Below, piece by piece: positions 15,001 to 21,351 of a DNA stretch of 64,000 nt. Within the stretch, counting starts at the first letter, position 1. The number at the start of each line of letters is the position of its first letter. Source of the stretch: Cytidiella melzeri (taxonomy: Eukaryota; Basidiomycota; Agaricomycetes; Polyporales; Irpicaceae); contig JABYQR010000004.1 in NCBI GenBank assembly GCA_022592445.1, forward strand, positions 248,001 to 312,000, read 5' to 3'. The notes below the pieces were generated by a model. It saw nothing but the letters and a program-made list of their open reading frames with translations. It was not told the DNA's origin and did not search any database. The position numbers and the translations under genes were made by a program.

Positions 15001-15149
15001 CGTATTAATGGTTTTTCAGCTCCGGCTCACGGACTCGTAGTTACCGGACTGTCTTTTGTTTTCCGTATATGGTCGCCTTATTGTTCTTTCATCACGCGGA
15101 CACATCTGTATCACAGATATTCCTTTTTGGGTCGCCTGAGGGCTCTGTC

Positions 15150-15157
15150 TTATATAC
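15150..15157 (+). promoter_or_regulatory. TATA box of the retrotransposon LTR
   Basis: The sequence ttatatac lies about 30 nt upstream of 15182, where the tandem repeat unit begins. This spacing suggests transcription starts at about 15180. The same box occurs in the 3' LTR at the equivalent place. Confidence 0.6.
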
Positions 15158-15181
15158 CTTCGCCCCCGCTCCTGACACTCC

Positions 15182-15366
15182 ATTGTGCTCTTTCTCTTTC
15201 GCACCTGGAGTGAGTATTCTTCGTTGTTCCTCACATATGCAATATGCTCACAGCCTGTACCTGTAGTTAACTCGCTTCGCTCGTGTGTCTTAGGTACAGT
15301 CATTATGCGATTGTGCTCTTTCTCTTTCGCACCTGGATTAACTCGCTTCGCTCGTGTGTCTTAGGT
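15182..15366 (+). repeat. Tandem LTR segment: intron-containing copy followed by its spliced copy
   Basis: Copy 1 (15182-15295) reads 28 nt ending ctgga, then a 57-nt insert (15210-15266) starting gtgagt and ending cctgtag, then 29 nt beginning ttaactcgc. Copy 2 (15310-15366) has the same 28 and 29 nt joined directly, 57 of 57 identical, with the insert exactly absent. The insert has a GT donor, AG acceptor and a branch-like tgctcac near its end, so it is an intron by every visible criterion. The same arrangement is in the 3' LTR at 20245-20429. Confidence 0.9.
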
Positions 15367-15444
15367 CCTTACGACGGCAAGTGGGATTACGACTGCGCAT
15401 CCATCTCTGCCTCTAGACGTGTTGAATTCATTCGACCGGCTTTA

Positions 15445-15456
15445 GGTTATGAGCCC
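15445..15456 (+). other. Primer-binding site, complementary to initiator tRNA-Met anticodon arm
   Basis: The 12 nt directly after the 5' LTR, ggttatgagccc, are the reverse complement of GGGCTCATAACC. That is the usual anticodon stem-loop of eukaryotic initiator methionine tRNA (CAU anticodon). Copia-type elements of other organisms are known to use a half-tRNA of this kind as primer. The match to this fungus's own tRNA is inferred, as no tRNA gene is in the window. Confidence 0.8.
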
Positions 15457-15577: not shown

Positions 15578-18500
15578 ATGTCGAGCACCACACCTCCCAC
15601 AGGTGGTTCGGCATCGTCTGGCCCTGCTGGGTCCACTCCTGCCTCTGCAGGCCCCTCTGCCGCTGGTTCGTCGTTCGTCAAGAACACTTCCAGCAACTCC
15701 TCGTTCATCAAACTCGACTCGCTGCCTAAGCTGACTGGTGCCAACAACTGGAAGGAATGGAACATGCTGTTCATCCAGTTCCTCAAGACGCAAGCCGCGT
15801 CTGGCATGGTCGATCCTTCTCTGGTCAAGCCCGCGTCCACCGACACGGACTACGACGACTGGTGCAAGGCCGACGCCAACGTCACTCTGGTTCTCCTCGC
15901 AACCGTCGATAGCTCTCTCCACCATCTCTTCGACCTCGAGACCAACTCCGCCGCCGAGATCTACGCTAAGCTTAAGGCCAACTACTCCGCCTCGACCACT
16001 CTCTCTGCGTTTCTCAAGTTCAAGCAGTACTTCCTTCACACGATCGACAGCTCACGCCCTCTCGTCGAACAGCTTGAAGAACGTGGTCGTCTCTGGCAAG
16101 AAGTTGACGCCTCCGGCATCCTTGGCGACAAGGAACTGCTCAAGATCTTTGGTCTCCTCTCGGTACTCCCTGACTCCTTCGCCAACATCATCCAGCCCAT
16201 CCTCGCTGTCACCGCGCCAAAGGACTTGAAATACGACGACATCCGATCGCGCCTCATTGACGAGGCTAAGTGAAAGGAATTGCCTTCAGTCTCTGCGGTC
16301 AAGTTCAACAAGTCTTCGGCTTCGTCCTCGTCGGGCAAGTCAAAGAAGCAGTGCGGGTTCTGCAAGTACAAGGGTCATACAGAGGACGAGTGTCGTAAGA
16401 AGAAGGCTGCTATTGAGGAGGCAAGGAAAGGGGGAAAAGGAGGAAAGGACAAGGGGAAGAAGGAATCTTCTGGGTCACCATCATTGTCTAACGGTTCTGC
16501 TGCTGTACATGTAGTCTCCGCTGAGGACTCCACGTCCGAAGCCGCCAACGTCGCAAATATAGATGTTATGTTTTATGCTTCGGGTGAAACACCCTGGATG
16601 CTCGACTCAGGCTGTACGAGACACATCACCAACAACCTCAACGACTTCCATGACTACAAGCCATTCGCTACGCCGTCGTTTGCGACATTAGCTGATGCTT
16701 TGAAGACTTCAATGTCTATGCTTGGGTCTGGGAGCGTACGTGGAACCGTACACATTGATGGAAAGCAGCTCACAGCGCAGTTTGACAACGTCTTATACTG
16801 CCCGGGCATCGCCTACCGACTCATTTCGATTTCCTGTCTTGACTCCAAAGGATTCTCTACCGTTTTCACTAGCGGTAAAGCACGGATACACAAGAATGAT
16901 ACCATCTACGGCATAGGTACTCTCAGGGGCGGTCAATACTGGTTGGGACTTCGTGTCTCTTCTTCGTCGGTCGCCTCCTCCACGCACACGCACTCGTCAC
17001 CCATCGACCTTGTACACCAACGCTATGGTCACCTCAACTGGGAAGCACTACAGAAGCTACGCTCTGACGACTCCCCAGTGACAGGTCTAACTATCGACGA
17101 GAAGACTCCTCGCTCTGAACACGCATGCGAAGGTTGTCAACTCGGCAAGGCCACACGACGCACATTCCATTCATCCTCGACACCTCGCGCGGACAAACCT
17201 TTCGATCTCATCCACACTGACTTGGCTGGACCTATGCAGAACTCTTCTGTAAACGGCGGACACCTCTACATGCTCACGTACATCGACAACTGCTCTGACA
17301 ACGTCTGGATTTATTTCCTGAAACACAAAGACAAACAGGAGCAGAAGTTCGAGGAGTTCCGTCAGCTGGTCAAAACTCAGTTCGAGAGGGATATCAAGAT
17401 TCTTCGCTCTGACAGGGGCGGTGAATACCAGTCGAAGCGCTTTGTGCAACGATTGAAGGATCTTGGCATTGTCCATCAGCGCACCACCCCGGATACACCA
17501 CAACAAAATGGCAAGGCTGAGCGTTTCAACCGCACCATATGGAGGCTGCGCTCTCTATGCTTTACGCCGCCGGGATGTCCAAAGGATTCTGGGAAGAAGC
17601 CGTGAAAACCGCTGTGCATGTGCACAACCGAGCACCCAAACGGTCTCTGGATTGGAGGACACCATTCGAGATTATCACTGGCTCCAAGCCGGATGTTTCA
17701 TACTTCCGTGTTTTTGGTTGCCTCGCCTATCGCCACATTCACAAGGATCATCGCAGGAAGCTCGATGCTCACACTCAGCCTCTTGTGCATGTTGGGTATG
17801 AAGCAGGTTCTAAAGGTTACCGCTTATGGGACAAACATACTCATAGGATTGTCTCGAGTACTGACGTTGTATTCGACGAACTGATCTTTCCTAACCGTCC
17901 TTCACCTCCTACTCAACCATCTTCGAGCATTCCAACCTCTCCGCCGACCACGTACGATCTTGAACTTTCACTCCCTTTAACGCCCTCTTCGCAGCTGGCT
18001 ACTACCACGTCGCAAGTGCCCCCAACTCAACAACCACCTCCTCCTGACGCAACATCCACGTCGGCTCCTACGCCTTCACGGATACCGCGTCCCTCTACTC
18101 CTATTCCTAGTTCGTCCACATCTGCTGAACCAGAGCCTAGCTCTTCATCCACGCCACTCTCGCCTTCCAAACGGAAAGGCCCTCCTGTCGTCCTTCTCCC
18201 AAACTCGAGCCAAATCCCAATCGTCTTCCGGCCGCTTCTCCACATGACTACCTTCCATTTCCAACCCGGCTCATGCTGGTGTTACACGTCGTTCACAACG
18301 CACTGTTGTACCTCGTGATGCGAAGCGTCTCCAGTCTATGTGGGCTGCTACTGAACAAGAGATTGAGGAGATGACTCGGGCTCGCGGGAACAAGGTCCCC
18401 TACAAAGGCAAAGGCAAAGCGAAAGCTGACGCCGGCGCTGTCCTCTCTGACGAGCAGGTTGTCATGCTGGCAGCGGCAGTTACGCCTCAGGGGGAGCCTC

Positions 18501-20071
18501 GTACCTATCGGCAGGCTATGGGTTCACCGGATCGAGATGACTGGCGTGCAGCTATGGAGGCCGAAATCAAAGGTCTCCAGGACACTGGAACATGGAAACT
18601 AGTCGATTTGCCCCCTGGTTGCAAGGCGATTAAGAGCAAATGGGTTTACAAACTCAAACTCGACAAGGACGGTAATGTTGATTGTTATAAGGCACGTCTG
18701 GTAGCCAAGGGTTTTGAACAAGTTCAAGGCATCGATTTCACAGACACCTTTGCTCCCGTCGCCCGTCTGGAGTCTTGGCGATACCTCGTCGCCTTGGCAG
18801 CTATTCTGGACTGGGAAATCCACCAGATTGACTTCCAACAAGCCTATCTGAACGGATCTTTGGACGAGGAGGTTTACATGGAGCAACCTGAAGGGTTTGT
18901 ACTGGATGAAGGCAAAGTATGCCACCTTCATAAGGCAATCTACGGCCTAAAGCAAGCAGGACGCCAATGGTTCCTCACGCTCAAGGCATGCCTCGAAGAA
19001 CTCGGCTTCGTCTGTTACGACACAGGTGATGTCGCCATTTTCACTCGTCAACGAGGGGGAGCCCTCCAAATTATTGTTTGCTACGTCGACGATCTCACTA
19101 TTATGGGGAACAGTCTCACCCTCATCAAGGAGACCAAGGACACTCTTCGTCGCCATTTCGAGCTCAAAGACTTAGGCGAGCTCAAGCACTATCTCGGTAT
19201 CCGTATCACTCGGGATAGGGGGAGTCGTCTCATCTACCTCGACCAAGAGGTCTACATAAATTCTGTTCTCAAACGCTTCCAGCATGAGGACTCCAATCCT
19301 GCTTCCACACCGCTTCCAACCGGTATCCAGTTGGTACACAATGAAAATCCCAAGGAGCAGTGCGACCCAGCACTTATCCACACCTACCGCAGCGTACTTG
19401 GCTCACTCATGTACGCCTCCCTTGGAACTCGACCTGACATCTCGTACGCCGTTGCAAAGCTCTGTCAATACCAATCCAACCCCTCGCAGCTGCATCTCCG
19501 CGCTGCATATCATGTCCTTCGCTACCTTTGCGGTACCTCAAGTCTCCGACTTTGTCTAGGCCATAATGACGAAGGCGTTGACGATCTTGTTGGTTACACC
19601 GACGCCGACTTTGCCGGCGACTTAGACGACTCGCTCTCCACATTTGGCTGGGTTTATTTCCTTGGCTATGGCGCTGTCTGCTGGTCCTCGCGCAAACAAC
19701 GTTCTGTGGCAAAGTCTACCTTCGACTCAGAATACTTTGCGGCTCACGAAGCTTGCGAGCAACTCAAGTGGTTGAAGATTCTCACTGATCAAATTGAGCA
19801 ACCTCTTCCTCTACCTGTCGTCCTTCATTGCAACAACAAGAGTGCTGTAGACGCTTCCAAGTCCACCCACGTGAAGCATCGCTCAAAACATACTCGCGTC
19901 ACTGCGCACGCTGTTCACGAATGCGTCACCGAAGGCCTCGTCGAATTGGTTTGAATCCCTGGAGTTGACAACCCCGCTGACATCTTCACCAAGTCTTTAC
20001 CAGCTGAAGCTCACGTTCGTCACTCTGAGTCCTTAGGGCTCGTCCAGTTTCACCTCGCTGAGGGGGAGTAA
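15578..20071 (+). pseudogene. Copia gag-pol polyprotein, interrupted
   Basis: Gag runs from 15578. An in-frame TGA at 16271 separates it from the zinc knuckle (CGFCKYKGHTEDEC), and reading continues in the same frame. Protease motif MLDSGCTRHI; pre-integrase HQRYGHLNWEALQKL with CEGCQLGKATRRTF; integrase core with HTDLAGPM, the second Asp in SDRGGEY and TPQQNGKAER. A one-base deletion near 17535 moves the frame, which then runs from EAALSMLYAAG to about 18200. A further frame change lies in the Pro/Ser linker. Reverse transcriptase from 18338 has YKARLVAKGFEQ, AIYGLKQAGRQW and the catalytic YVDDL. RNase H has GYTDADFAGD. A TGA at 19952 precedes the last codons, and the natural TAA overlaps the start of the 3' LTR. 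It cannot make a full polyprotein as it stands. Confidence 0.93.
20060..20068 (+). other. Polypurine tract of copia element 1
   Basis: Purine run gagggggag immediately upstream of the 3' LTR start at 20069, the normal place for plus-strand priming. It also encodes the last codons of the polyprotein. Confidence 0.85.
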
Positions 20072-20507
20072 TGGTTTTTCAGCTTCGGCTCACGGACTCG
20101 TAGTTACCGGACTGTCTTTTGTTTTCCATATATGGTCGCCTTATTGTTCTTTCATCACGCGGACACATCTGTATCACAGATATTCCTTTTTGGGTCGCCT
20201 GAGGGCTCTGTCTTATATACCTTCGCCCCCGCTCCTGACACTCCATTGTGCTCTTTCTCTTTCGCACCTGGAGTGAGTATTCTTCGTTGTTCCTCACATA
20301 TGCAATATGCTCACAGCCTGTACCTGTAGTTAACTCGCTTCGCTCGTGTGTCTTAGGTACAGTCATTATGCGATTGTGCTCTTTCTCTTTCGCACCTGGA
20401 TTAACTCGCTTCGCTCGTGTGTCTTAGGTCCTTACGACGGCAAGTGGGATTACGACTGCGCATCCATCTCTGCCTCTAGACGTGTTGAATTCATTCGACC
20501 GGCTTTA
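20069..20507 (+). repeat. 3' LTR of copia element 1
   Basis: 439 bp, same as the 5' LTR except two substitutions. Carries the same TATA box and the same intron/spliced tandem copies (intron 20273-20329). Followed by target duplication cgtat at 20508-20512. Confidence 0.97.
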
Positions 20508-20595
20508 CGTATTGATCTCACTTTGCTTGAGCTGGGATGGACAGCACGGAACAAACAAATGACATATTCGAAACAACAACAACTTGTAGATACAG

Positions 20596-21351
20596 CTAAT
20601 TTAAAGTACAATCATACAACGCGAGCTGCCCCTGTAGTTCCGTCCAAATATCCCTGTGAATCTCCTCGCGCGTATGTGCAGCTACAGGTTCAGGTAGGAG
20701 TTTCTGTGCTGGGCCAGGGGCACGCTTCAGCTTGAAGCGTGCCATCCAGGAGTCGAGGAAACTGCCTTCGAGAGGAATGCTGGTGTTCCAATCAGGCCAG
20801 TTGGAGCCAGCAGGAAACTCAGGATAGGTGCCGACGAACGCCATCCAGTACAGCGAAACACCCCACGACCACTGGGGATGTGTCCGGTCCAAGACAGTCG
20901 TGAGGAGCCAACGCTCGACGCTGTTGAGGAGCGATTCCCAGGATGCAAACGACTCGCAGTTGAAATGCTTGAGGGTGGTTGCGAACGTAAGCGGGTAGTC
21001 AGTCTCCTGTGCTGAACATGTGAGGTGCATGTCGCTCGACGCAAAGCACGATGTACTTACTGGTGGGAGGGTGACCGCGGAGTCATAATTGGCCTCTTCG
21101 CCTTTCACCTTTGCGGGGCACACTGTTGCCGTGAGAAAAGCAGCAGCCTCAGGAGGCACTGCAACTGTTACTGTGAGGGGCTGTGAGAATGTCAGTGATT
21201 GAGCAAAGCGTGAATATCGCAGAGGGCTTACCACAGAGTCCAATGCGCGCGATAAGCCGTGGATTTCAATCCACAAGGGAACACGACGGAAGTCGTCAGC
21301 CCCTTCGCCGTGTTGGGGCGGTCCAGCGTTGACCATGAAAACGGTCGCCAT
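20596..21351 (-). CDS. Unknown protein gene divergent from transposase, apparently intact
   Basis: I do not recognise the family. Start at 21351 (MATVFMVNAGPPQHGEG). Two introns are likely: ALDSV|PLTVTVAVPP and VTLPP|ETDYPLTFA, both GT-AG; the frame is also open without splicing. The protein is about 215 residues, Trp-rich in its second half (HPQWSWGVSLYWMAFVG, GSNWPDWNTSIPLE) and ends LYDCTLN. No membrane segment or known catalytic motif is seen. It begins 277 bp from the start of the decayed transposase on the opposite strand, so it may be an accessory gene of that transposon or a host gene beside it. Confidence 0.55.
   Translation of the reverse strand: MATVFMVNAGPPQHGEGADDFRRVPLWIEIHGLSRALDSVVSPLRYSRFAQSLTFSQPLTVTVAVPPEAAAFLTATVCPAKVKGEEANYDSAVTLPPVSTSCFASSDMHLTCSAQETDYPLTFATTLKHFNCESFASWESLLNSVERWLLTTVLDRTHPQWSWGVSLYWMAFVGTYPEFPAGSNWPDWNTSIPLEGSFLDSWMARFKLKRAPGPAQKLLPEPVAAHTREEIHRDIWTELQGQLALYDCTLN

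Follow-up and report, generated by a model that had tools for sequence, protein, structure and literature searches.

LTRs of copia retrotransposons in Cytidiella melzeri carry an R region with a putative intron beside its joined copy, an arrangement that points to probable renewal from spliced RNA

In spumaviruses and HTLV the splice donor lies in R, the acceptor lies far downstream, and it is the unspliced RNA that serves as the genome. Among LTR retrotransposons, Ogre, EVADE and Cer1 have introns, and their splicing is described as yielding subgenomic or accessory RNAs (PMC12786077). Regarding first-strand transfer, breakpoints near the U3-R junction of fission yeast elements have been taken as marks of minus-strand transfer (PMC10085805), and work on HIV-1 describes an effect of the bases at the RNA 5' end on the transfer of strong-stop DNA (PMC4668388).

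Here we describe an element of the basidiomycete Cytidiella melzeri. The window is the whole stretch of DNA that was analysed, 64,000 nucleotides of one contig (C334:248001-312000), and the genome searched (G000) comprises 49.7 Mb in 731 contigs; all LTRs compared in this work come from this genome. The window contains a Ty1/copia LTR retrotransposon, with gag, integrase upstream of a copia-type reverse transcriptase, and paired LTRs with a target duplication. Its domains follow one another in the order PF14223, PF22936, PF13976, PF00665, PF25597 and PF07727, and the coding part is that of an ordinary copia element. The features are as follows (window coordinates):

15006-15444, forward strand: 5' LTR, 439 bp, with the CGTAT target duplication at 15001-15005 (read directly)
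15151-15156, forward strand: putative TATA box, with its first T at 15151 and copy 1 beginning 31 nt further on
15182-15209, forward strand: E1 of copy 1, 28 nt, with the presumed transcription start at 15182
15210-15266, forward strand: intron 1, presumably spliced, 57 nt, GTGAGT...TGTAG, with CTCAC 16 nt before its end
15267-15295, forward strand: E2 of copy 1, 29 nt, with an AG|GT step at 15293/15294
15294-15364, forward strand: possible intron 2, 71 nt, GTACAG...TTAG, containing the spacer and copy 2
15296-15308, forward strand: spacer, 13 nt, ACAGTCATTATGC
15309, forward strand: scar base, G in the window element and A, TA, T, G, TG or C in other LTRs
15310-15366, forward strand: copy 2, E1 and E2 joined (read directly)
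15367-15444, forward strand: U5 (read directly)
15578-16273, forward strand: gag-like open reading frame (PF14223)
16280-17605, forward strand: open reading frame with matches to Pol_BBD, GAG-pre-integrase and integrase core domains
18338-19954, forward strand: open reading frame for a copia-type reverse transcriptase (PF07727)
20069-20507, forward strand: 3' LTR, 439 bp, with CGTAT at 20508-20512 (read directly)
20245-20358, forward strand: copy 1 of the 3' LTR (E1 20245-20272, intron 1 20273-20329, E2 20330-20358)
20373-20429, forward strand: copy 2 of the 3' LTR, in RNA the presumed landing site of strong-stop cDNA

The order within the LTR is U3, E1, a 57-nt GT..AG insert, E2, the spacer, one base, E1 and E2 joined, and U5, and not the single uninterrupted R of a canonical LTR. 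Copy 1 of the 5' LTR (15182-15295) begins at a C|A step. As the sequence-only reading had reported, its 57-nt insert starts with GTGAGT and ends with TAG, copy 2 equals copy 1 minus that insert at 57 of 57 bases, and the 3' LTR repeats the layout at 20245-20429 (offset +5063), all of which can be read directly. The same reading had set copy 2 about 30 nt after the TATA box; the box (15151) stands instead 31 nt ahead of copy 1 (15182), not of copy 2 (15310). We rejected a transcription start at copy 2, since no TATA box precedes it at a suitable distance and its E1 changes are shared with copy 1. Native U5 was likewise considered for the spacer, and in families 1 and 2 (see below) the spacer differs from U5. 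When both strands of the window were scanned for split repeats (exon matches of at least 18 nt), a stretch accompanied by the same stretch minus an insert was found at two places only, the two LTRs, and the same scan of five block-shuffled control windows gave 0 matches.

Other observations concern the surroundings of these LTRs. Directly 3' of the 5' LTR, at 15445-15456, stands GGTTATGAGCCC, which we take to resemble a primer site pairing with the initiator tRNA-Met anticodon arm; a family 2 LTR is likewise followed directly by GGTTATGAGCCC. In the window element the coding part (15578-19954) is broken into several frames, and other copies of its family keep a single frame open over 1502 aa, through the reverse transcriptase, so intact copies exist. 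Beyond the 3' LTR, an open reading frame on the reverse strand (20596-21351, 251 aa) has seven homologues above threshold, all of them hypothetical proteins of Cytidiella melzeri, and apparently belongs to a narrow multi-copy family.

The sequence-only reading had proposed a genome search for further LTRs of this family; the layout recurs both in the family of the window element (family 1) and in six other copia families. Across the genome, 203 places match the exon/insert junction of copy 1 and 174 match the joined junction (at most 3 mismatches in 23 nt in each case). From the best 100 of each set, together with similarity searches, 131 distinct LTRs were read, a sample in which decayed copies are under-represented because the best matches were taken first. 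Both copies are present in 121 of the 131 (form D), the joined copy only in six (form S) and the intron copy only in two (form I), two further LTRs being cut; the similarity searches, with the best 40 candidates scored in each, returned the same two I and six S forms on top.

For the remaining families, the genome was searched with the PF07727 profile (best 150 of 764 candidates scored) and the 3' ends of 13 elements were read. Nine have the layout, two are S forms of family 2 (C39, C378), and in two (C557, piece L182, and C179, piece L185) no such repeat was seen in the 801-nt pieces, which hold part of the LTR only. The R region of family 3, used as a similarity query, matched 36 places with identity down to 68%, and eight more places read from that search have the layout in eight of eight cases. 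The layout is thus present in seven sequence families of one genome, family 1 and six diverged copia families:

Family 1: the window element
Family 2: C93, C727, C6, C553, C24, C72
Family 3: C103, C63, C705, C322, C274
Family 4: C102, C710, C669
Family 5: C34
Family 6: C334, at about 366 kb
Family 7: C456, the first bases of copy 1 lying outside the piece read

Intron-bearing places of family 2 number at least 37. The family 6 element (G000:C334:366180-371259) is found elsewhere on the contig of the window and has the same LTR layout. Among representatives of six families the lowest identity is 0.55 for E1 and for the spacer and 0.59 for E2 and for intron 1, figures that come without a baseline from unrelated sequences; each of the 17 pieces of families 2-7 with two copies shows 0-2 nt of difference between them. 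Outside this genome, no relatives were found among viral contigs and four distant ones, at 32-45% identity, among genome contigs.

Intron 1 is 51-59 nt long across the families, with GT...TAG ends and a CTNAY motif 10-20 nt before its end in all seven. E2 ends with AG in seven of seven families; copy 1 then continues with GT (GTACAG, GTACAT, GTTAGC, GTTAGA) and copy 2 with the next exon, so that the spacer and copy 2 together form a possible second GT-AG intron. This intron 2 runs from GT to AG in the seven families, and CTNAC or TTAAC, a looser motif than that of intron 1, stands 20-33 nt ahead of its end in all of them; the motif is degenerate and without a chance control, which we count against it. 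Judged by ends and a branch-like motif that are kept as the sequence diverges, both introns would be spliceosomal. The earlier statement that the LTR proves splicing within the 5' leader is too strong for what we infer from such signals.

A leader consisting of E1-E2-U5 needs the second removal, since loss of intron 1 alone leaves E1-E2-spacer-E1-E2-U5, and joined copies followed by the spacer should then appear. None was found in family 1 (at most 3 mismatches in 46 nt), and in family 2 one of 20 matches is of this kind (C114), a case that counts against the second removal. The LTR in question (L194, G000:C114:54490-54622) reads spacer, joined copy, spacer, joined copy and U5, with the scar AC twice and its start outside the piece; this tandem fits the product predicted from removal of intron 1 alone and, equally, slippage. 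In the window element, loss of both introns removes three of the four ATGs upstream of the gag ATG; families 5 and 6 have no ATG in intron 1 or the spacer, and removal of ATGs is therefore not a general purpose of the introns.

Based on these data, we consider it likely that copy 2 is rewritten from the spliced 5' end of the element RNA upon transposition. Transcription would begin at E1 of copy 1, and intron 1 and intron 2 (the spacer with the old copy 2) would both leave the 5' leader, giving E1-E2-U5. Reverse transcription would then produce a strong-stop cDNA, U5-E2-E1, sometimes with one to a few extra terminal bases. If the 3' end of the RNA keeps its introns, copy 2 offers this cDNA its uninterrupted match, and the cDNA would land there; extension through the spacer, copy 1 with its intron, and U3 would follow. 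The outcome would be a new LTR with a fresh copy 2, sometimes with a new scar, and with both introns kept. The reading requires splicing confined to the 5' LTR, the introns staying in the 3' LTR, which we count against it. Renewal, rather than mere inheritance, of copy 2 is suggested by three observations: junction changes between elements, E2 variants common to both copies, and near-identical copies in diverged families.

The junction in question is the scar between the spacer and copy 2, which in the 121 two-copy LTRs is A (47), TA (33), T (27), G (6), TG (5) or C (3). The equivalent boundary ahead of copy 1 is CTCC in 120 of the 121, and the spacer end ahead of the scar is ATTATGC in all but a few. 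Twenty of 21 same-strand LTR pairs 4.8-5.4 kb apart have identical scars, against 27% expected for unrelated LTRs, although some of these pairs differ at 10 sites or more and may not be one element; when closer pairs are included the count is 22 of 23, and the two LTRs of the single discordant pair have 21 site differences and unlike E2 types. Among unpaired LTRs the scar differs in 46% of the 137 pairs with 3-5 other differences and in 5% of the 37 pairs with 0-2. On a tree built without the scar, the scar needs 39 changes, against 23 for the next of the 438 columns and a median of 1, and with shuffled tips it needs 61 on average. The scar is, on this sequence comparison, the most changeable site of the LTR between insertions, is hardly altered after insertion and is partly inherited. 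The 39 changes against 61 after shuffling, together with the 5% of the 37 closest pairs, mean that a new scar is not made in every cycle, and this counts against the reading. In family 3 the scars of five LTRs are TCT, TT, AC, TAGT and none, CTC ahead of copy 1 being constant and the spacer ending in CAATTACAT in five of five. This pattern would suit terminal bases that the strong-stop cDNA does or does not gain at the strand change. Inheritance through an unspliced leader was rejected; scars would in that case precede copy 1.

The main rival concerns the landing step. With the same spliced leader, the genomic RNA could end at the spacer and the reverse transcriptase could jump end to end from the 5' end of the leader, without annealing to copy 2. 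Such a jump would also produce a scar, it would explain why intron 2 is unspliced in the 3' LTR (there would be no acceptor), and the commonest scars, A and TA, could be poly(A) remnants. However, the spacer end is nearly constant in families 1 and 3, whereas cleavage sites usually vary; no A run was seen, and copy 2 of the 3' LTR would serve nothing. We therefore hold the end-to-end jump to be unlikely, and landing on copy 2 remains our preferred reading of this step.

The relation between the two copies of one LTR bears on whether copy 2 is renewed at all. E2 exists in two types, which differ at positions 11-12, and position 11 agrees between the copies in 96 of 97 elements (one LTR taken from each). 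With positions 11-12 excluded, 15 E2 variants are common to both copies against 3.4 expected, and 0 of 2000 permutations reach 15. Changes of E1 common to both copies are seen in other families (two substitutions in L177, one in L187 and a one-base deletion in L188). For family 1, five E1 variants are common to both copies against 6.3 expected, a number reached by 1617 of 2000 permutations; in addition, both exons are identical between the copies in only 45 of 120 family 1 LTRs, and some variants found in copy 2 only recur in related LTRs (C592, C656_24699). We count all three results against renewal; the recurrent copy-2-only variants could come from a parent with unlike LTRs. Nearly all E1 variation of family 1 is C-to-T at two CpG sites (15184, 15200 and their equivalents in copy 2), hot spots that behave largely independently in the two copies, a pattern which looks like decay of methylated CpG. 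A T at position 3 of copy 1 often accompanies a T at position 19 of copy 2. A separate case is the LTR G000:C441:25848, which has the U3 haplotype of one subfamily and, in both copies, the E2 type of the other, and is likely a recombinant between U3 and E2.

Gene conversion or recombination between the repeats at the DNA level could also keep the copies alike, with no splicing in each cycle. The direct repeats, 28 and 29 bp long and 71-128 bp apart, offer the substrate, and deletion between repeats could yield the two I and six S forms. We nevertheless find this explanation improbable, as it leaves unexplained both a scar that varies between elements and is constant within LTR pairs, and copies that end at AG|GT in seven families.

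A lower standing still is given to a single event, in which copy 2 was fixed once and the LTR, with its long R, was then passed on like any ordinary one. This accounts for the anatomy of a single LTR, and the spacers do look related between families (GTACAGTCATTATGC / GTACATTCTATATTC; GTTAGC... in others). It is very improbable given that the copies within an LTR are alike across families whose exons have diverged, that E2 variants are common to both copies, and that scars stand ahead of copy 2 and not of copy 1. The sequence-only reading had combined two ideas here: that the strong-stop cDNA of a spliced leader was set down downstream of the intron-bearing R, which is how copy 2 behaves, and that this was one fixed accident, which the same observations contradict.

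Finally, the LTRs with one copy bear on the direction of change. A distance of 4992 nt separates the I LTR at C414:9293 from the D LTR at C414:4301; their U3 haplotypes are similar, and the two are placed as the 5' and 3' LTR of one element would be. The element at C135 has the S form in both LTRs. Since this I LTR is apparently paired with a D LTR in one element and the S LTRs are spread over several haplotypes, beside two-copy LTRs, the I and S forms are most simply derived by-products of D, through mis-landing or repeat deletion, and not ancestral forms. Intron-only copies, which had been sought as support for the first interpretation, do exist (2 of 131), but look derived, one being apparently paired with a two-copy 3' LTR. 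The eight S and I LTRs have no extra base ahead of copy 1, so that another route is needed for them, a point we count against renewal of copy 2. That copy 2 is ancestral and copy 1 gained a non-intron insertion, the result named beforehand as fatal to the sequence-only reading, deserves next to no credence: joined-only LTRs do occur in families 1 and 2, but the six among the 131 look derived, and in seven families the insert occupies one and the same position, its sequence diverged and its ends GT...TAG.

With renewal of copy 2 as the preferred reading, a whole clade of fungal copia elements probably replicates through a self-renewing processed copy, in which a split-exon R is accompanied by a pre-spliced landing pad that is nested in a second intron and overwritten at each transposition, the reverse-transcribed RNA being obligatorily spliced and the introns of the LTR being kept. 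Introns inside R are expected to be lost in one round of reverse transcription, and the layout shows how an element could keep them. If true, this breaks with the rule of thumb whereby unspliced RNA serves LTR elements as their genome. The layout would then also record, for past transpositions, where the RNA started, where it was spliced and which bases ended the cDNA, and strand transfer could be followed in the sequences of more than 100 natural events. Among the matches listed in the open-licence PMC literature, we found no account of an LTR whose R holds whole introns and has a joined copy as its partner.

Compared with Ty1/copia LTR retrotransposons, the window element is the same in its gag, its integrase before the reverse transcriptase, its paired LTRs and its 5-bp target duplication, and differs in its R, which an intron interrupts and after which comes a joined copy, lying inside a second possible intron. 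Spumaviruses and HTLV share splicing that begins in R, but their acceptor is distant and their genome unspliced. With Ogre, EVADE and Cer1, as described (PMC12786077), the window element would share splicing of LTR-element RNA, but it has both of its introns inside the LTR and would use the spliced leader as template for reverse transcription. In fission yeast elements the transfer point is likewise read from LTR sequence, although their R is an ordinary single one (PMC10085805). As the scar suggests here, the bases at the RNA 5' end affect first-strand transfer in HIV-1, which has neither a spliced R nor a second copy (PMC4668388).
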